Shown one piece after another: positions 3,871 to 15,911 of a stretch of DNA of 33,715 nt (the stretch's first letter is position 1; every line of letters begins with the position of its first letter). The position numbers were made by a program, and so were the translations under genes. Origin of the DNA: a virus; the IMG/VR virus record IMGVR_UViG_3300025941_000068, positions 1 to 33,715 of that record. One strand, given 5' to 3'. A model generated the notes under the pieces. It ran no database searches. It worked only from the letters and a program-made list of their open reading frames with translations, and had not been told where the DNA came from.

Positions 3871-4520
3871 TACTCATCCCCGTTAAAATATTCAATCATC
3901 CGCTCGCGGACAAATTGAAGGTCGTTGTCAATATACATGTCAGCAAACATGTCTATACTTGTTTTAGCCATATGGAGGCCGTCGAATTGCGTGAGAAACC
4001 TAAACTTACCCTCTACTACCCTTGCGTGTAAAACTGTGCTAATTCTTCCCTCAATAGATACTTTATCATCAACCATCTTACCAACTGTCTTAGTTTTGAT
4101 AACCCCGGCATGGCTAAGCTCAGTGTGAGACATAATAAAACAAATCAAGTCTTCACGAAGAAGCTTAAGTTCTTCTACAATTTCAAAAGTGTGCTTACCA
4201 ATATCTACAAAACGCTCAAAAGATTTTTCACTTGCTCGATGCATAAACTCGTTAGCTAATACAAAGTTAAAATCATCAATTATCAAATTCTTAATGTTCG
4301 GCAACCGTTCATTAATAGCTTTGATATACGAAATGATTTCTTTATAACAGTCAGTCGAGTGATAGTTTTTTAATTCTTTGTTGTATTTGTTTTTGTAGCC
4401 CTTGAATGGCAATGGCTTGTTCAGTACATTAATTATAAATGTTTCTTCTGGGTTTAATGTGCGGATGCTGGTTGATTTTCCAGTTCCTGATTCGCCTAAA
4501 ATTAATACAATATTACTCAT
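3870..4520 (-). CDS. Sak4-like recombination ATPase (AAA_24 family)
   Basis: 216 residues from the ATG at 4520; a TTG two codons earlier is less likely because GGAG lies 7 nt before the ATG. Walker A is GESGTGKST (9-17) and Walker B is NLIIDDFNF. The central LLREDLICFIMSHTE is typical of the phage nucleotide-binding (AAA_24/Sak4) group, RecA-like core proteins that anneal single strands. It is single-domain and short, as usual for Sak4. It sits between a coiled-coil protein and the SSB-like gene, supporting a recombination module. A generic phage ATP-binding protein is the fallback reading. Confidence 0.75.
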   Translation of the reverse strand: MSNIVLILGESGTGKSTSIRTLNPEETFIINVLNKPLPFKGYKNKYNKELKNYHSTDCYKEIISYIKAINERLPNIKNLIIDDFNFVLANEFMHRASEKSFERFVDIGKHTFEIVEELKLLREDLICFIMSHTELSHAGVIKTKTVGKMVDDKVSIEGRISTVLHARVVEGKFRFLTQFDGLHMAKTSIDMFADMYIDNDLQFVRERMIEYFNGDE

Positions 4521-5448: not shown

Positions 5449-5777
5449 CTATGATAGATGATTGTGAGCACAGATACTCCATTAGGGAGAATGGAAGATA
5501 TGTGTGCGAGCTATGTAATAAGGTTGCTGGAGTTTTAGAGGATAACGATATGAACACATTAGCTTTTTGTGCATTTCGTTATGGTTTAGGGCGAAAGACT
5601 TATGTGGTAAGCAATATCGTACAGGCTTTGATTAATAACAAATATCGTATTAGAGCTGATATCAAGCTTAGAATATGTACTGAGATTCAAGAAGCAATAG
5701 ACTTGGATAAAGCTGGAATGGATTGCGATATCGCAGAATGGCAACGTGTTGTTGAGGAGTTTAAATGCGCCATATAA
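5445..5777 (+). CDS. Hypothetical early protein with zinc-ribbon N-terminus
   Basis: 110 residues from a GTG at 5445, chosen because AGGGAG lies 8 nt upstream and the GTGA overlap couples it to the preceding gene; an ATG at 5451 is the alternative. The N-terminus has C-x-H followed about 13 residues later by CELC, a metal-binding pattern repeated in other small genes of this phage. The rest (AFRYGLGRKTYVVSNIVQALINNKY, then a Trp-containing C-terminus) resembles a widespread phage protein type of unknown function. No activity is assigned. Confidence 0.68.
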   Translation: MTMIDDCEHRYSIRENGRYVCELCNKVAGVLEDNDMNTLAFCAFRYGLGRKTYVVSNIVQALINNKYRIRADIKLRICTEIQEAIDLDKAGMDCDIAEWQRVVEEFKCAI

Positions 5778-5962: not shown

Positions 5963-6157
5963 ATCTTATGATATATTGAGCGACATGGCCGCTATTTGGC
6001 GTAGCAGCCCGTCGTGCGCGTAGCGCAATGACATAACCATGCTTGTTTAGGAAGCAGATTATGCATGTATTTTAAACATGTCTGACCTTCTATGCAAGCC
6101 TTTTTGTTGGAGAAAGTAGTACTTATTCACGGAACATATTAAAAGGATATTTAATAT
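5963..6157. other. 195-nt gap with inverted repeats upstream of the replication gene
   Basis: No gene is seen on either strand. The first part has a GC-rich patch with the 7-mer GCGTAGC or near copies repeated (around 5999-6024). The second part has GCTTG (6041-6045) pairing with CAAGC (6095-6099), enclosing CATGT (6064-6068) with ACATG (6076-6080). The outer stem is followed by CTTTTTG, so a weak terminator, attenuator or antitermination-type RNA is possible. The initiator's ribosome site AAAAGGAT follows at about 6141-6148. Confidence 0.4.
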
Positions 6158-7000
6158 ATGAGCATAGAAGCGATCAACTGGGTATTGGAGATACAAGAGT
6201 TATTACCATCTGAAAAATTTGTATTGCTTGCGTTAGCCAATAGAGCCAATGACAAGCATCATGCGTGGCCATCATGGACGCGACTAATGAAAGACACATG
6301 TCTAAGTAGAAAATCTATTTATAGAATTTTAGACTCTCTTATTCGCAAAGGATATTTAATCAAAACAGGCGACACTATTCGGCAAGTAAATGTTTACAAA
6401 ATATGCGGCGTCTTGTCAAAAGAAAATTTAACCAAATTAAAATCTACCAATAAAAAGTTATCCACAACCAGTGTCACCATGACACTAGTGTCACTAAGAA
6501 ACCAGTGTCACCATGACACGGGTACTAGTGTCACCATGACACCCCCACCCGTGTCACCACGACACCTAGAACCATTAATTGAATCCAAAAAGGAATCATC
6601 AGGGAAAAATTCGATTTTTTTAAACACTAAAACCCAAATTCAAAACCAGTTAACAAAGAGCGGTATCGAGCCAATTGAAGATATCGTGGCACAAATGGCA
6701 TACTACGTTGATTCAAAGCCAAGCCAACCCCAAGATCAAACCATACGCGTAGCGGTGAGCAAATACAGAAAAGGCCAATGGAGAACACCTCATGGATATA
6801 ACGGGATTACATCTAAATCAATTGCTGAAAAAGAAAAGGCTTATGAAGAAGAAAAAAAGATAATGTATAAACAAGAAGCTGAAGCTTATAAAAATATTGT
6901 GAAAGAGGCCAGCAACAGAGAAGTAGCTAAAGGCCATTTAGCAGAATTAATGAAATTTTTAAAGCCTACTTATTTAAAAACCGGAGAAAATTGTGAGTGA
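6158..7000 (+). CDS. Replication initiator with winged HTH (phage O-like)
   Basis: 280 residues. Residues 14-72 are a helix-turn-helix of the HTH_36 type (PSEKFVLLALANRAND, AWPSWTRLMKDTCLSRKSI, IRKGYLIKTG), the standard DNA-binding domain of phage replication proteins. Residues about 100-140 are a Thr/Ser/Pro-rich linker whose DNA carries the iterons and DnaA box. The C-terminal part (IEDIVAQMAYYVDSKP, VAVSKYRKGQWRTPHGYNG, then a charged helix) is the probable helicase- or loader-contact region. The arrangement of an origin inside the initiator gene is that of lambda O. No DnaB-type helicase or loader is seen in the window, so host helicase or a gene outside is needed. Its end overlaps the next gene by 8 nt. 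Confidence 0.82.
   Translation: MSIEAINWVLEIQELLPSEKFVLLALANRANDKHHAWPSWTRLMKDTCLSRKSIYRILDSLIRKGYLIKTGDTIRQVNVYKICGVLSKENLTKLKSTNKKLSTTSVTMTLVSLRNQCHHDTGTSVTMTPPPVSPRHLEPLIESKKESSGKNSIFLNTKTQIQNQLTKSGIEPIEDIVAQMAYYVDSKPSQPQDQTIRVAVSKYRKGQWRTPHGYNGITSKSIAEKEKAYEEEKKIMYKQEAEAYKNIVKEASNREVAKGHLAELMKFLKPTYLKTGENCE
6458..6466 (+). promoter_or_regulatory. DnaA box
   Basis: TTATCCACA is an exact match to the consensus DnaA box. It lies 4 nt before the first iteron, inside the initiator coding sequence. Chance occurrence of one exact 9-mer in 34 kb is not negligible, but the position makes function likely. Confidence 0.65.
6471..6565 (+). repeat. Iterons, palindromic GTGTCA-N3-TGACAC array
   Basis: Three exact copies of the palindrome GTGTCACCATGACAC lie at 6471-6485, 6505-6519 and 6528-6542. 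A fourth copy has one change (GTGTCACCACGACAC, 6551-6565), and a half-site GTGTCACT lies at 6488-6495. Start-to-start spacing is 17, 17, 23 and 23 nt. The copies fall in different codon contexts of the host gene, so the repeat is selected as DNA and not as peptide. Expected ligand: the initiator encoded by the same gene. Confidence 0.9.
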
Positions 7001-7232
7001 AGAATTAGAAAATACCAGGAAAAATTTGCAAAATGAAATAATAAATTATTATTCTCAGCTTGCTATTTTTAAACAACTCTTGGCTAGAAAAATAAATCAA
7101 ATTGAAATAAATCAAGAAGCCACTTTAATCAAAACAATGATGCAGTTAAGTGATATTCAGATTGAATTGAAAATAATGCAGTCTTACGCTCAGTGTATTT
7201 GTAGTTTATCTGAACATTTAGCCGATGAATAA
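6993..7232 (+). CDS. Hypothetical coiled-coil protein
   Basis: 79 residues from a GTG at 6993, with GGAG 6 nt upstream; it overlaps the initiator stop. It is almost wholly helical with heptad-like spacing (LENTRKNLQNEIINYYSQL, LARKINQIEINQE). Not recognised. Position right after the initiator suggests a replication accessory role, but a helicase loader would be much longer and carry a P-loop, which is absent. Confidence 0.6.
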   Translation: MSEELENTRKNLQNEIINYYSQLAIFKQLLARKINQIEINQEATLIKTMMQLSDIQIELKIMQSYAQCICSLSEHLADE

Positions 7233-7444: not shown

Positions 7445-7675
7445 ATGAGTGAAAACACAGTTATTGGGACTACGAAATGGTTTAATAATGACAAAGGCTA
7501 TGGATTCATAACCTACAATGAAAAGGACTTCTTCGTCTATTACAGCGACATTATAGGCGAAGGATACAAAACCCTTGACGAAGGCCAGAAAGTTAAATTT
7601 GTGCCTTCCCAGGGGGCTAGAGGAGGGATTGCTAAGGATGTGGAGGCTCTCTCAATGACTTCTGGTAATCGATGA
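7445..7675 (+). CDS. Cold-shock domain protein (CspA family)
   Basis: 76 residues, one cold-shock domain and little else, the usual length. The nucleic-acid-binding motifs are visible: KWFNNDKGYGFI (11-22, RNP1) and DFFVYYSDI (28-36, RNP2, usually VFVHFSAI). The basic G-A-R-G-G stretch before the last strand replaces the usual G-P-Q-A. Family role: binds single-stranded RNA or DNA, melts mRNA structure or prevents termination. It is the last gene of the rightward early operon and its 3' end overlaps csrA by 44 nt on the opposite strand. Confidence 0.88.
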   Translation: MSENTVIGTTKWFNNDKGYGFITYNEKDFFVYYSDIIGEGYKTLDEGQKVKFVPSQGARGGIAKDVEALSMTSGNR

Positions 7676-7823
7676 TACGTTGTATTTCTTTGCGATAGAC
7701 TGGGATGTCTTTAGGGGCTTCGATGCCTAGATGTACTTGTGGCCCATCTACTCTTAGGACAGTTACGACGATATTGTTGTTAATGATGATTTGTTCGCCT
7801 GGGTTTCTGTGTAGTATTAGCAT
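7632..7823 (-). CDS. csrA: CsrA/RsmA-family RNA-binding regulator
   Basis: 63 residues, normal CsrA length (61 in E. coli). It opens MLILHRNPGEQIII, continues through VTVLRVDGPQVHLGIEAPKDIPVYRKEI and ends in the C-terminal helix with a short basic tail. The residues known to contact GGA in RNA, Leu4, Arg6 and Arg44, are all kept; position 5 is His instead of Thr. CsrA dimers bind GGA motifs in mRNA leaders and block or stabilise translation. The ribosome site AAGGATG (7828-7834) sits 4-5 nt before the ATG. It is the last gene of a leftward accessory operon and may regulate phage genes, host metabolism or both. Confidence 0.92.
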   Translation of the reverse strand: MLILHRNPGEQIIINNNIVVTVLRVDGPQVHLGIEAPKDIPVYRKEIQRIIDYQKSLREPPHP

Positions 7824-7832
7824 GGCTCATCC

Positions 7833-7973
7833 TTATTTACAAAATTCCGTAATGCTTAGCAACTCTTCATGTAGTTGCTGAATTTGATAGTTTGTTAATA
7901 CATTGGACATTCCCACTGAGATACATGTTATGAGTATCGTAGTGGCAATCCATTTCGGTAATGTGTAGGACAT
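7833..7973 (-). CDS. Small single-pass membrane protein
   Basis: 46 residues from the ATG at 7973. This start is preferred because GGAG lies 6 nt upstream and its A is shared with the stop of the 39-residue gene (TAATG); the frame is open to an ATG at 8021. Residues 7-25 (KWIATTILITCISVGMSNV) are one membrane helix, followed by a polar tail of about 20 residues. A small holin or inhibitor is conceivable; no family is recognised. csrA begins 9 nt downstream and its ribosome site starts at this gene's stop. Confidence 0.6.
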   Translation of the reverse strand: MSYTLPKWIATTILITCISVGMSNVLTNYQIQQLHEELLSITEFCK

Positions 7974-8092
7974 TACAATCTCCAGTATTTGTTGCAGCGT
8001 TTGCAGAAGGCGTGAGGCCATCCGTAATGCTGCAAAGTGTTCTCGAAGTCTAAGTCATGGCCAAATAAGTAGCAATAGATGCGTTTGAACAT
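7973..8092 (-). CDS. 39-residue zinc-ribbon-like protein
   Basis: A short gene, ATG at 8092 to TAA at 7973. It begins MFKRIYCYLFGHDLDF and ends FCKRCNKYWRL, so it has C-x5-H in the first part and CxxC near the end. That is a common plan in tiny phage proteins (C/H knuckle plus CxxC). GGGGA precedes the ATG by 4 nt, and the stop overlaps the next start as TAATG. These couplings and the metal-ligand pattern argue that it is real despite its size. Function unknown. Confidence 0.62.
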   Translation of the reverse strand: MFKRIYCYLFGHDLDFENTLQHYGWPHAFCKRCNKYWRL

Positions 8093-8093
8093 G

Positions 8094-8147
8094 TTATCCC
8101 CAGATGTGGATTGCTGTGGCGCAGACTATTAAGGTTAGGTTGGTCAT
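8094..8147 (-). CDS. 17-residue hydrophobic micro-ORF
   Basis: The reading frame MTNLTLIVCATAIHIWG starts at 8147, overlapping the upstream stop as ATGA, and stops 1 nt before the ATG of the 39-residue gene. It is hydrophobic enough to insert in a membrane. It could equally be a coupling leader that carries ribosomes across the gap between two genes. Evidence is only position and overlap. Confidence 0.3.
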   Translation of the reverse strand: MTNLTLIVCATAIHIWG

Positions 8148-8383
8148 TCCAATCCCTCATATGAGACGCAAGCACATTTGTTGCATCTAAACTCTGAAAC
8201 ATTACAATCAATGCAATGGTATTTAGGCTTTCCATATTCATGCTCGCAATAGTTATCAATCATGGATTGGACTCTATTCACTAAAGATTGCAAAGCATCA
8301 TAAGATGAAAGACAATACCTTTCCATTCCATGTTCCATTAGCCTTTGGATTATCTTTAACTCTTCTTTCGTGAAGTCATTCAT
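8144..8383 (-). CDS. Hypothetical protein with zinc ribbon
   Basis: 79 residues. The N-terminus is helical (FTKEELKIIQRLMEHGMERY, LVNRVQSMIDNY). The C-terminus has C-E-H-E-Y then HCIDC and FRCNKCACVS, that is a C-x-H plus two CxxC pairs, likely one or two zinc sites. The start codon follows GGAGAATTCTACAG, the same leader found upstream of the next gene in the operon. It overlaps the preceding gene by 8 nt. Not a named family. Confidence 0.68.
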   Translation of the reverse strand: MNDFTKEELKIIQRLMEHGMERYCLSSYDALQSLVNRVQSMIDNYCEHEYGKPKYHCIDCNVSEFRCNKCACVSYEGLE

Positions 8384-8645
8384 CTGTAGAATTCTCCACT
8401 AATTCATAGGTAGCTTCAAATATATCTTGCTTACATGGATATATTTCCCCCTTTATTCCCTTAATTATATAGTTGCCTGGATTGGCTAACATGTCTCCTT
8501 CCAGAGTCCTAATTAGACATCCATTTTTAACAGCAACTTGTGATAAAATTTTATTGTCATAGTTGTTCTTTAAAAACCATTCTGGGAAATCATCAATTCC
8601 AAGCCTGAAGGCTTCAACCACAACTGGTTTTTTTCTGTATTTCAT
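8376..8645 (-). CDS. Conserved phage protein, MKYRKKPVVVEA family
   Basis: 89 residues from the ATG at 8645; the frame is open 9 codons further, but the MKYRKKPVVVEAFRLG opening is the usual N-terminus of this widespread phage family. The later GDMLANPGNYIIKGIKGEIYPCKQDIFEATYE is its hallmark (PGD-x-I-I-x-G-x-x-GE-x-Y-P-C-x-P-D-I-F). The family is common in phages of many hosts and its function is not established. GGAG lies 10 nt before the ATG within a 19-nt segment repeated at the downstream gene. Confidence 0.78.
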   Translation of the reverse strand: MKYRKKPVVVEAFRLGIDDFPEWFLKNNYDNKILSQVAVKNGCLIRTLEGDMLANPGNYIIKGIKGEIYPCKQDIFEATYELVENSTDE

Positions 8646-9220
8646 CTGTAGAATTCTCCGCATTTTTTGCATCTATTCATCGAAAAACTACCGCCCCCAT
8701 CCATTATGACGTGCTCTATGCCGTCTGACTCGTGGTGACATTCTTGGCTAAAGCCTTTAATGTCACCTTCGAATTCAGGTTTGTATTGATTAAGCATGCA
8801 TTGCATTTTCAACTGATGCCAGTACGCTATTTGCTCTTCGATTAATTCTTCTTTTGATGCGTAGACATCTTTTTGTAGGAAGCTGCCTTTTCCTCGGGCA
8901 CACTTTAGCTCTACTCTGTAGTCACTGCTTTCTTCTTCCCAGTTAATGGTGTCAACTAGCCATTGCTTTATTTCTTCGTGGAAACATGTCCAAACCTTGT
9001 CGTTTGGCTTGAATTTTGGTTCTGGATAACAACATAGTTTTTTAAGTTGTATGATTAGATTATCTAAATTATCAGTTAATCCTATCGATTTGTGGGGGCC
9101 ATTTTTTACCTCAAATAATTCAATATAGATTTTATCTTCCCAACCAAATTCTACTTGAAATGTATAGTCTGATTGGTTGCATAGCTCATGTGCTATTTTT
9201 AGTTTTTCGTAATCAATCAT
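8642..9220 (-). CDS. Hypothetical protein with C-terminal zinc ribbon
   Basis: 192 residues. The middle has an SH3-like strand set (FKPNDKVWTCFHEEIKQWLVDT) and a helix with EELIEEQIAYW. The C-terminus has CHHES and then MNRCKKCGEFYR, a C-x-H plus CxxC zinc pattern. Not recognised. It overlaps its neighbours by 4 nt on both sides, so it lies in the csrA-terminated operon. Confidence 0.65.
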   Translation of the reverse strand: MIDYEKLKIAHELCNQSDYTFQVEFGWEDKIYIELFEVKNGPHKSIGLTDNLDNLIIQLKKLCCYPEPKFKPNDKVWTCFHEEIKQWLVDTINWEEESSDYRVELKCARGKGSFLQKDVYASKEELIEEQIAYWHQLKMQCMLNQYKPEFEGDIKGFSQECHHESDGIEHVIMDGGGSFSMNRCKKCGEFYR

Positions 9221-9438
9221 TCCATTTCCTCAAGCTCATTTTGAATCCGCTCATCAACTGATATTATCTGCTTTGCGAAGTAGACAAGGCTCTCCCAAGC
9301 TGCCATATGGCTGGTCTCGTTATAAACTGCTACATCTAGTTCGTCTTGGATTTCTATATTGACATGCTTGTTGTCAACAAGTTTTGCCCAGATTGTCATG
9401 TCTTCGGACATTAGTTCGTATAGAGTTAGGTCAGTCAT
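9217..9438 (-). CDS. Hypothetical acidic protein, first gene of the csrA operon
   Basis: 73 residues from the ATG at 9438, chosen over an upstream in-frame start at 9489 because AGGAGAG lies 5 nt before it and because the promoter would otherwise be inside the gene. It is acidic, opening MTDLTLYELMSEDM and ending IQNELEEME, with one aromatic patch (WESLVYFAKQ). Not recognised. It is directly downstream of a near-consensus promoter. Confidence 0.68.
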   Translation of the reverse strand: MTDLTLYELMSEDMTIWAKLVDNKHVNIEIQDELDVAVYNETSHMAAWESLVYFAKQIISVDERIQNELEEME

Positions 9439-9460
9439 TTGTCTCTCCTGTTTTTTAGAT

Positions 9461-9489
9461 ATTATGCCTTGTAACAAGACACATGTCAA
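9461..9489 (-). promoter_or_regulatory. Strong sigma70 promoter of the csrA operon
   Basis: Read on the minus strand: a perfect -35 TTGACA (9489-9484), a 17-nt spacer and a -10 CATAAT (9466-9461), one change from consensus. The start would fall near 9454, about 15 nt upstream of the first gene's ATG at 9438. An 11-nt palindrome CTTGTAACAAG (9468-9478) lies in the spacer and may be an operator. This is the best promoter in the window. Confidence 0.8.
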
Positions 9490-12360: not shown

Positions 12361-14518
12361 CCTTGAGCGAGTTCGTAAGAACGTAGCTTCTTCCTACATA
12401 TACTTCAAAGACAACGCTGTTCGCTTTCGGGAGTTTCGACAATATGTCTTCCGCGAATCGATTAACACACAACAAAAAACAATTCTTCAGCAGCTCAATC
12501 GACCAATTGTTGAATTCAACATGCTCGAGGCTTATATTAGTCGGTTACTTGGTGAGTTTTCTAAGCATGAGCCAAGCATCGAAGTTTCACCAGCCGAAGG
12601 TGTCCCTATCGACCAGTCAGTGCTGGATATTGTCGAAGGACACATCCGACATATCTTCCATCAGGCAAATAAAGACTCTTTTGCATATGAAATCTATAAA
12701 GATTTGCTTTCTGGTGGATTTTCAGTAGCTAAAGTATGGACTGATTATGCTGGCCCCATGAGTTTTAATCAGCAGATATTCTTGAGCAGGGTATTCGATC
12801 CAACATTGGTAGGTTTTGACCCGCTTGCTCGGGCGCCCCATAAAGGAGATGGGCAGTTTAGTTTTGAAATATATCCCATGCTGGAAGAAGATTTTAAACG
12901 TGAATTTCCAAAAGCGTCTGTGTCGAATATTGGCTATATGCGTGATATTGAAGGCTTTAATTGGTCATACAAAGACATTCTTAATCAAAATATAGTCTTG
13001 GTTGCTGATTATTATGAGAAGAAGAAGCGCAGAGTTAGAATTGTGAAGCTTGCCAATGGCCGTGTCATGACAGCCAAAGACTATGAGAAGCTTCAGGAGT
13101 ATTGGCAGAAGGAACAGTTTATTGAACAGATTCCTGTGATTGTTGGCAAACCTCGATGGACTGAGCTTGAGATTATTTGTCAATATAAATTCGTTGAGAA
13201 TGAAATTCTTGAATACAAAGAAACGGATTATACTTATTTGCCGCATGTATTCTTTGATGGTAATTCAATCATATTGACTCAAGGAACACAAAATACCACT
13301 TACCAAATGACTCGTCCTTATGTTTATCATGCTAAGGGCGTGCAAGATATGATGAATTTTGCTGGCCAAACCATGTGCAATAGCATGGAAAATTTGATTC
13401 AGCATAAATTTATTGTAATGAAAGAAGCTATACCTCAGGAACAGGATTATCTTGAGGCGCTAAATGATATTCAGCGCGCTAATACAATTGTTGTTAATGC
13501 CTATTCTGAGAACAATCCTGACAAACCAATTCCTACACCAATTCGTGAAGTACAAAATGTTCCATTGCCTCCTGAAGTAACGGCTACTTTCCAAATGACT
13601 GGCGGAGTAACTCAAACTATTCTTGGTTCTTATGCTAGTAATTTAGGCAAGAATGATAATGATCTTTCTGGAAAGGCTGTAATAGAATCTTCTAGTGTTG
13701 GCAATGCTGCTGCAATGCCTTATGTTGTGGGTTATTTGCAAGGGCTGACCCAGATTGGAAATATTATTGTGGATTTGATGCCTAAGTATTTGGTTGGCAA
13801 ACGCTCTATCCCTATTGCTAAAAAAGATGGCAAGAAAGATTACCAAGGCGTTAATCAACCTGGAAGTCCTTTCCTTGATTATGATGAAAAAGCAATTAGA
13901 GTAAATGTTGATGCTGGTGTTAATTTCCAAGTACAGAAGAACCAGGCAGTTGAGCAAATTATTGCATTGATGCAGGCTAATGAGAAGTTGGGCCAGTTCT
14001 TTAATGACGAAGATGGCGGCCTGCCAATTCTTGTTAGAAATTTAACTATTTATGGAGCAGATGAATTACCAGAAGCAGTTGAGAGATGGTCTGCTAAGAT
14101 ACAAATGCAACAACAACAAATGCAACAGCAACAGCAGCAAGCCATGATGATGGATCCAAGAATGCAAAGAGTTGAGGTCGAAAAACAAAAAGTTCAATTA
14201 GATGCTCAGCAACAAATGCTTGACCAACAGCAAAGACAGTTTCAAAATCAAATTGAAATTGCCCAGCTCCAAGTGGATAAAGAAATTTCTGATGCCAAAA
14301 TATTAGAAAGCGAAGCCAAGGTTAGTCAGGCTCAAATTGATAGTGCGATTAAATTAGAAGAATCAAATACTTCGCATTTCAATCACGCTATTGATGCTTC
14401 CGTAAAATTGGCAGAAATTAAGTCAAGAGAACATAACGACCATTTGGCTACGCATAAATTAGTTCATGAGATTAATAAAACTAATAAGGATGATAACGAT
14501 GACAACGCCGAAATATAA
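12329..14518 (+). CDS. Portal protein, P22 type
   Basis: 729 residues, close to P22 portal (725). The body is a typical portal (DNLERVRKNVASSYIYF, FNMLEAYISRLLGEFSKHEPSI, a clip/stem section around 350-500). From about residue 590 the chain turns Gln-rich (QMQQQQMQQQQQQAMMMDP) and then a long coiled coil, matching the C-terminal barrel of P22 portal that senses head filling. It forms the dodecameric DNA channel. AGGAG lies 8 nt before the ATG, which sits inside the terminase gene. The last residues are acidic (DDNDDNAEI). Confidence 0.88.
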   Translation: MAVINRTVSDNLERVRKNVASSYIYFKDNAVRFREFRQYVFRESINTQQKTILQQLNRPIVEFNMLEAYISRLLGEFSKHEPSIEVSPAEGVPIDQSVLDIVEGHIRHIFHQANKDSFAYEIYKDLLSGGFSVAKVWTDYAGPMSFNQQIFLSRVFDPTLVGFDPLARAPHKGDGQFSFEIYPMLEEDFKREFPKASVSNIGYMRDIEGFNWSYKDILNQNIVLVADYYEKKKRRVRIVKLANGRVMTAKDYEKLQEYWQKEQFIEQIPVIVGKPRWTELEIICQYKFVENEILEYKETDYTYLPHVFFDGNSIILTQGTQNTTYQMTRPYVYHAKGVQDMMNFAGQTMCNSMENLIQHKFIVMKEAIPQEQDYLEALNDIQRANTIVVNAYSENNPDKPIPTPIREVQNVPLPPEVTATFQMTGGVTQTILGSYASNLGKNDNDLSGKAVIESSSVGNAAAMPYVVGYLQGLTQIGNIIVDLMPKYLVGKRSIPIAKKDGKKDYQGVNQPGSPFLDYDEKAIRVNVDAGVNFQVQKNQAVEQIIALMQANEKLGQFFNDEDGGLPILVRNLTIYGADELPEAVERWSAKIQMQQQQMQQQQQQAMMMDPRMQRVEVEKQKVQLDAQQQMLDQQQRQFQNQIEIAQLQVDKEISDAKILESEAKVSQAQIDSAIKLEESNTSHFNHAIDASVKLAEIKSREHNDHLATHKLVHEINKTNKDDNDDNAEI

Positions 14519-15383: not shown

Positions 15384-15393
15384 ACTATTATCC

Positions 15394-15481
15394 CGTAGAT
15401 TAGCTCAGTCTGGTAGAGCATTAGCTCCTAGAGCCCTGCCTGTTGTGTGGGAGGTCGATGGTTCGAATCCATCATCTACGG
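15394..15481 (+). tRNA. tRNA-Asn(GTT)-like gene with a 14-nt duplication of the D arm
   Basis: Acceptor CGTAGAT (15394-15400) pairs with ATCTACG (15474-15480), extended outward by CC/GG. T8-A9 are present. The D arm is GCTC-loop with TGG-GAGC (15403-15419). The anticodon arm CCTGC-CTGTTGT-GTGGG (15435-15451) has two G-T pairs and anticodon GTT. The variable loop AGGTC and the T arm GATGG-TTCGAAT-CCATC (15457-15473) are canonical. Between position 26 and the anticodon stem are 14 extra nt, 15421-15434, that repeat the TTAGCTC...GAGC frame of the D arm. CCA is not encoded. The insertion makes function doubtful: a decayed tRNA, a tRNA-like regulator or an unusual tRNA. Confidence 0.5.
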
Positions 15482-15560
15482 GTTTTCATAAGGTCGTCAG
15501 GCCTCTGCTGACTGCGGAACCCTACCGCTTTAGAACAACATGCACAAATTGGCGACCGCT

Positions 15561-15761
15561 TTAACTTTTCATATTCATTCTTTCTTTAAACCAGCTATCA
15601 GTTTCAACTAATGGGTAAAGTACGCGCCCATTATCTGTTATTTGAACAAACTTTGGCCCAGTTCCGTTAGCTCTGGCCTTTAGAAACCAGGACTGCGAAT
15701 AACCATATCTCTCTGAGGCTTCTTTGTCCGTTATAAATTGCTTTCCTAACATATTTATCAT
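15561..15761 (-). CDS. AlpA/excisionase-type HTH protein
   Basis: 66 residues from the ATG at 15761 with AAGGA 5-6 nt upstream; a longer frame to 15803 would run into the tRNA-like element. The core FITDKEASERYGYSQSWF, then KFVQITDNGRVLYPLVETDSWF, is a MerR-like winged HTH of the AlpA/HTH_17 group. These are small regulators or recombination directionality factors of prophages and islands. Here it is on the minus strand inside the rightward late operon, isolated from any integrase, and flanked by structured RNAs. Confidence 0.72.
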   Translation of the reverse strand: MINMLGKQFITDKEASERYGYSQSWFLKARANGTGPKFVQITDNGRVLYPLVETDSWFKERMNMKS

Positions 15762-15779
15762 GCTATTCCTTGGTGAGGT

Positions 15780-15911
15780 GGAAGCAGGATGGAATCGCAC
15801 CATCTACGGACCGCCTTAGAGTGCTGTGTTATCTATCCTATCCAGGTATCGGACCGGTCCATTCTGAGCCTTAGCACTACCGAGTGTTTCACTGTCAACA
15901 CCGCTACTTCC
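15780..15911 (-). ncRNA. Second tRNA-like fold, enlarged central region
   Basis: On the minus strand GGAAGTAG (15911-15904) pairs with CTGCTTCC (15787-15780) through one G-T wobble that would be a mismatch on the plus strand. Next to the acceptor is a T-arm-like GATGG-TGCGATT-CCATC (15804-15788). GTGTT...AACAC (15901-15884) resembles a D arm, and AGTGC/GCACT (15878-15874 with 15824-15820) a further stem. A 10-nt palindrome GGACCGGTCC lies at 15851-15860. The element is about 132 nt, far longer than a tRNA, and lacks T8 and a clear anticodon loop. Possibly a degenerate tRNA or a tRNA mimic. Confidence 0.35.

Follow-up and report, generated by a model that had tools for sequence, protein, structure and literature searches.

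The virus record IMGVR_UViG_3300025941_000068 comprises 33,715 nucleotides of DNA (33.7 kb, 40% GC; the whole stretch is hereafter called the window) and encodes, at positions 7632-7823 on the minus strand, a homologue of the post-transcriptional regulator CsrA, the sole one in the record. The gene (csrA, 63 aa, 7823-7632) is the final member of a leftward operon (9438-7632, minus strand) in which direct reading of the sequence distinguishes eight closely spaced genes, the smallest of them just 17 codons long; the preliminary description, which had placed csrA last in a leftward operon of seven to eight genes, was thus correct, the higher figure including the 17-codon open reading frame (ORF). 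Each gene abuts or overlaps its predecessor, csrA alone being set apart, by 9 bp. The operon opens with the ATG at 9438, preceded by AGGAGAG and located about 23 bases past the -10 box of a sigma-70 type promoter (TTGACA-17-CATAAT, 9489-9461, minus strand); a TTG at 9489 was rejected as the start of the first gene, opA, since it falls within the -35 box. On the opposite strand, a cold-shock-domain gene (7445-7675, plus strand; match at 3.8e-19) ends a rightward early block and lies tail to tail with csrA, with an overlap of 44 bp.

The operon is flanked by the rightward replication genes on one side and by the terminase genes on the other. Searches of ORFs and protein families identified a portal protein (phrog_156, 4e-64), terminase subunits, the head closure protein Hc3, a DNA ejection protein, an O-like replication protein, Sak4, a single-stranded DNA-binding protein (SSB) and a helicase, and by this gene content the window is a fragment of a P22-like short-tailed phage (podovirus). 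The csrA neighbours (O-like replication, Sak4, SSB, terminase and portal genes) place the gene in a phage genome and not in host DNA; among the annotated genes of the window no conjugation or type IV secretion genes were recognised, the recognised neighbours being phage structural and replication genes only. No match to a tyrosine integrase was found in the window, which may be a fragment, nor in 38 of 40 records carrying related large terminase subunit (terL) genes, which may likewise be incomplete; the podovirus is probably lytic.

The encoded protein matches the CsrA family far above the Pfam threshold (PF02599, 3.7e-21, 75.3 bits versus a cut-off of 27), and the residues Leu4, Arg6 and Arg44, which are involved in RNA binding, are present, confirming the earlier claim of a complete CsrA that retains them. 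It shares its length, predicted fold and these three residues with CsrA of E. coli and RsmE of Pseudomonas, and differs from E. coli CsrA in having Asn for Arg7, His for Arg31 and Tyr for His43, in a short proline-rich tail and in its phage origin. Identity to solved members of the family is about 44-52% (46.8 bits to RsmE, 2jpp). An AlphaFold2 model of the monomer displays the expected beta-strands and C-terminal helix (pLDDT 80.7, pTM 0.49), and the low pTM plausibly reflects outer strands that pair across the dimer; the best PDB matches obtained with this model in Foldseek are all CsrA/RsmA (5.2e-4, TM 0.58). An alignment of 17 phage CsrAs from operons of this type with E. coli CsrA revealed that Arg6 and Leu or Ile at position 4 are kept in 17 of 17, and Arg44, Ala36, Pro37 and Glu46 in 16 of 17, at only 33-49% identity to the window protein (where measured). 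On average 10.8 of 17 proteins carry the identical residue at the RNA-contacting positions 2-7 and 40-47, versus 6.4 at positions 8-39. Since the RNA-contacting residues are kept in such divergent copies, RNA binding is likely to be under selection; the phage protein is apparently intact and functional, and would be expected to dimerise and bind RNA.

A long residence of csrA in phages is more likely than a recent capture from the host. The closest bacterial protein in a search of a genome collection is 63% identical over 50 aa, and in the CsrA tree the operon CsrAs stand on long branches and cluster beyond shuffled labels (7 changes versus 15.8), all of which argues against recent capture. 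The tree is otherwise poorly resolved: the protein offers too few columns to resolve origins, and the window protein groups weakly with the other operon CsrAs.

Some further csrA arrangements were encountered in these searches. In contigs L005 and L060, around position 6001, a second, partial CsrA domain is fused ahead of the complete one, and contig L181 bears two different csrA genes (6969-7121, plus strand; 14140-14289, minus strand). Two INPHARED entries listed as phages, CAKLQH020000034.1 (L165), with csrA beside alaS and thrA, and AGRM01000002.1, a 691 kb Salmonella record judged from its entry alone, look like host chromosome instead, and csrA of either is probably not a phage gene.

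The operon promoter matches the sigma-70 consensus in 11 of 12 positions, in keeping with the near-consensus promoter of the preliminary description. By itself this match is weak evidence: one-mismatch promoters occur in 37 of 100 shuffled windows (chance expectation 0.44 per window). Only two sites in the window reach at least 11 of 12, namely this one and a second at 5037-5008 (minus strand), which precedes the leftward recombination/replication operon. What makes the promoter convincing is its position about 23 bp before the first ATG of the operon and its recurrence in two relatives (L083 and L080), where TTGACA-17-TACAAT occupies the equivalent place, with the first of the leftward genes on one side and a divergent zinc-finger-like gene on the other. 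Similar motifs precede csrA in other contigs (TTGACA-17-CATAAT in L174, TTGACA-17-TATCAT in L197, TTGACA-16-TATCAT in L166, TTGACA-17-CATACT in L178 and TTGACA-17-GATACT in L082). We consider it a credible strong promoter of sigma-70 type; its type and its resemblance to the second leftward promoter suggest that the host sigma-70 polymerase would use it and that the operon would be expressed early.

The surroundings of csrA were compared in two sets of relatives. A terminase search yielded 80 loci, of which 40 records were searched for CsrA; it was found in two (L083 and L082), in both, like csrA of the window, on the minus strand and ahead of the terminase, and the record with the closest terL (L080, 82%) has a leftward operon and promoter without csrA. 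Relatives of opB (9220-8642, minus strand, 192 aa), the second gene of the operon, were found in 21 contigs with the single protein and in 35 with a profile, and csrA is present in 15 of 37 opB-bearing records. Its occurrence varies with orientation: csrA accompanies opB, always on the same strand, in all 11 contigs in which opB is opposite to the terminase and portal genes, versus only 2 of the 12 with opB on the late strand, where csrA is still opposite to the late genes (13 of 13 in all). For this association the Fisher p is 6.7e-5, or 1.0e-4 with the near-identical L169 and L212 counted once, shared descent being uncorrected. A cold-shock gene converges on csrA in eight contigs. That csrA is held at one place across the phage group suggests that it is useful to these phages. 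The gene is terminal in the window and L083 and not always elsewhere, as several relatives have one further small gene after it; in L208 (~3970-4215, plus strand) this encodes a Fis-family helix-turn-helix (HTH) protein (6.5e-8), and in L082 (2790-2975, minus strand) a Cro-like HTH protein.

Two candidate features at the junction with the cold-shock gene were discarded. The 44-bp antisense overlap is found only in the window, the genes being separated by ~81 bp in L083 and 240-500 bp in others; and small genes within the gaps of several relatives, as well as the lack of any gap in the window, speak against a structured RNA or a terminator conserved between them.

Which RNAs the phage CsrA would bind was approached by counting AnGGA motifs upstream of the ribosome-site zone near gene starts, as called by a crude gene caller, in 16 loci with csrA and 31 without. 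No enrichment was found in the carriers (mean ratios 0.83 and 0.80, Mann-Whitney p = 0.71), so that genome-wide self-regulation was rejected and the earlier suggestion of CsrA as a timer of phage genes gains no general support; host mRNAs, or just a few phage mRNAs, are favoured instead. GGA is densest at 5700 and 33280 on the plus strand, with 9 copies per 150 nt, and an Rfam scan of the window for a CsrB-like decoy RNA matched only a tRNA.

A host-directed role for the phage CsrA fits these observations best, and host mRNAs are its targets with a likelihood that we put near even. The host RNA polymerase would transcribe the leftward accessory operon from its own strong sigma-70 promoter, with no need of a phage activator, and the last gene would yield a CsrA of canonical dimeric form, which early in infection would supplement or replace the CsrA of the host and bind GGA motifs in the 5' leaders of host mRNAs. 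The host would be kept in a translation programme of growth type that favours replication, with glycolysis on and glycogen, biofilm and stress genes, possibly cas genes too, turned down, to the presumed benefit of the phage. Taken as a whole, this explanation is in our estimation about as likely to be right as wrong. It is supported by the intact CsrA, the recurrence of the promoter, the conserved place of the gene, the preserved RNA-contacting residues and the absence of AnGGA enrichment, as well as by the lack of integrase matches (in the window and 38 of the 40 terL relatives), the repression exerted by RsmA in Serratia, and the co-occurrence of phage and host csrA. Several points weigh against it. 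The gene is evidently dispensable, because about 22 of the 37 opB contigs and the closest terminase relative show none; the changed Arg7, Arg31 and His43 may alter affinity; the record is incomplete, so that the phage may have a temperate life cycle; and the csrA leader, with GGA at -25 and -9, would permit local feedback, the AnGGA counts being compatible with a few specific phage targets.

Another view is that the phage CsrA serves as a timing device, acting chiefly on a small number of phage mRNAs such as those of its own operon, of the convergent cold-shock gene or of a switch gene; this we regard as unlikely without being negligible. ACGGA and AAGGAUG stand 16 nt apart directly before the csrA start, ACGGA or a second upstream GGA recurs in several relatives, and the tight coupling of the small operon genes would allow a single site to control several of them. 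However, AnGGA is not generally enriched near starts in phages with csrA relative to those without, the GGA at -9 doubles as a ribosome site, and the leader in the window lacks a convincing hairpin with GGA in its loop. CsrA proteins are symmetrical dimers with swapped strands, and the phage protein might alternatively interfere with the Csr system of the host, by forming mixed dimers or soaking up CsrB-like decoys, and shift the output of host CsrA in either direction. Besides the dimer architecture, the changes at residues 7, 31 and 43 and the possibility of several CsrAs in gammaproteobacteria (seven matches in a Legionellaceae metagenome-assembled genome, MAG) would agree with such interference; it nevertheless seems rather improbable, as a pure poison subunit would not need the essential RNA-binding residues that are kept across the phage group.

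A counter-defence role, in which the phage CsrA lowers the translation of cas or other defence mRNAs, follows the proposal of Campa et al. 2021 and is in our assessment distinctly improbable; a scan of the operon for defence-related matches found nothing beyond the cold-shock domain, which is a generic match. Finally, the patchy distribution of csrA (15 of 37 opB contigs, 2 of 40 terL relatives) would be expected of a neutral passenger gene (moron) without a present role in infection, yet the fixed place and strand and the conservation of functional residues at an overall identity of about 35-50% make this very hard to credit. Thus, we prefer the host-directed role. That the phage CsrA may rewire the host, and that the companion genes may all encode takeover proteins, as the preliminary description suggested, we treat as proposals. 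A more far-reaching and tentative idea, on balance improbable, is that CsrA, encoded at the 3' end of the operon, the convergently encoded cold-shock protein and, in relatives, the Fis-like or Cro-like protein make up a dedicated hub of global regulators with OpB-like partners, an immediate-early module that would reset host expression post-transcriptionally. If so, these regulators and undescribed partners such as OpB would act together.

The host may belong to the Legionellales. Among 143 genomes from the order of a Tatlockia (Legionellaceae) MAG, one has a 13 kb contig with a terminase 75% identical to that of the window, as against two matches, of 56% and 51%, among 369 gammaproteobacterial genomes; this suggestion depends on a single contig, which may be wrongly binned, and tRNA comparison yielded no useful match. 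The seven CsrA matches mentioned above are in MAG G076, of the same order as the bin with the 75% terminase. In Legionella, CsrA governs the switch involving the replicative phase (see also PMC6853998), and if the host is indeed of this order, a phage CsrA that keeps the cell in the replicative phase would be an attractive idea.

Phage-borne csrA is itself already known. Sobrero and Valverde 2020 listed 30 csrA-bearing phages, including VvAW1, Bcep22, F116 and PTXU04 (PMC7366521), of which VvAW1, Bcep22 and PTXU04 are short-tailed, and Campa et al. 2021 found many phage csrA genes in GenBank and IMG/VR, preferentially in phages whose hosts carry csrA, and proposed host manipulation or anti-CRISPR action for phage RsmA, RsmA of Serratia being a repressor of cas genes and flagella (PMC8450108). 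PHROGs likewise includes CsrA-like families. The window resembles the phages of both studies in that a double-stranded DNA phage carries a single, apparently intact copy. It differs in arrangement: csrA of VvAW1 belongs to a nuclease operon and shares the strand of the late genes, that of phi297 lies near repressor, ParA-like and RecT genes, and that of podovirus JC1, whose product is possibly in the virion, between portal and capsid genes, whereas csrA of the window ends a leftward operon of small genes with opB, opposite to the late genes. Vibrio phages of the 431E45.1 / 219E41 type have a related terminase (38%) and, as in the window, csrA upstream among small genes, but on the terminase strand, and no opB match was found in INPHARED. 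Integrative conjugative elements of Legionella similarly carry a CsrA paralogue, CsrT (PMC7366521), on a mobile element, in contrast to the phage setting without recognised conjugation genes described here. We came across no account of this OpB-containing leftward operon or of its constant association with csrA; the studies consulted list phage csrA genes, none with a demonstrated role. Phages that keep the place, strand and RNA-binding residues of csrA while the proteins diverge to 33-49% identity lend themselves to the question whether, and through which mRNAs, a phage directs its host by way of the host's post-transcriptional regulator.

The companion genes, all on the minus strand, had been described as uncharacterised small proteins, which holds for most of them in that they lack a Pfam family; opC (8645-8376, 89 aa), however, belongs to the known and widespread phage families phrog_419/4502 (3.5e-29), of unknown function. 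The first gene, opA (9438-9217, 73 aa), has relatives in L175, L180, L195, L197, L211 and L216 and no Pfam or PHROG match. OpB has a predicted SH3/Tudor-like middle and a zinc-ribbon-like C-terminal end (CxH...CKKCGEFYR); as it gave no significant match in Pfam, PHROG or INPHARED, it is, by these searches, an undescribed phage protein family that co-occurs with the csrA operon. Its fold did not lead to a function, since the matches were SH3/Tudor-like proteins and phage proteins of unknown role, with no solved match below 0.001. Further downstream, opD (8383-8144, 79 aa) starts with MNDFTKEE, has a cysteine-rich C-terminal end and recurs in relatives; the 17-codon ORF (8147-8094) overlaps its stop (ATGA) and is possibly not a gene; opE (8092-7973, 39 aa) has weak matches to DUF1660 (0.0042, below the cut-off) and phrog_2670 (2.1e-4); and opF (7973-7833, 46 aa) contains a single hydrophobic stretch and matches no family in Pfam or PHROG.

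The end of OpB-like proteins, CKKCGEFYR/K, is encoded by TGCAAAAAATGCGGAGAATTCTACAGATGA (8642-8674, minus strand, in the window and 25 further sites in relatives), the last codons of which include a ribosome site as well as the start codon of the following gene, overlapping as ATGA; the motif is the gene end in 24 of 26 cases. GGAGAATTCTACAGATGAA is present again ahead of opC and opD in the window.

Outside the operon, positions 15393-15803 of the window, within the late region, contain a tRNA-Leu gene and, after it, an excisionase/AlpA-like ORF (phrog_66), without an integrase match. The terminase large subunit ORF of L083 (9983-12517, plus strand, 844 aa) carries near its end an intein-like insert (CFEAGTLIHTPTGKKPIEQL...YYANDILVYNC), and stretched terminase matches suggest inserts in L116-L122 as well. 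In L082, a long low-complexity stretch of RGRGRG or SRSRSR repeats (1440-2270) separates the replication genes from the leftward operon.
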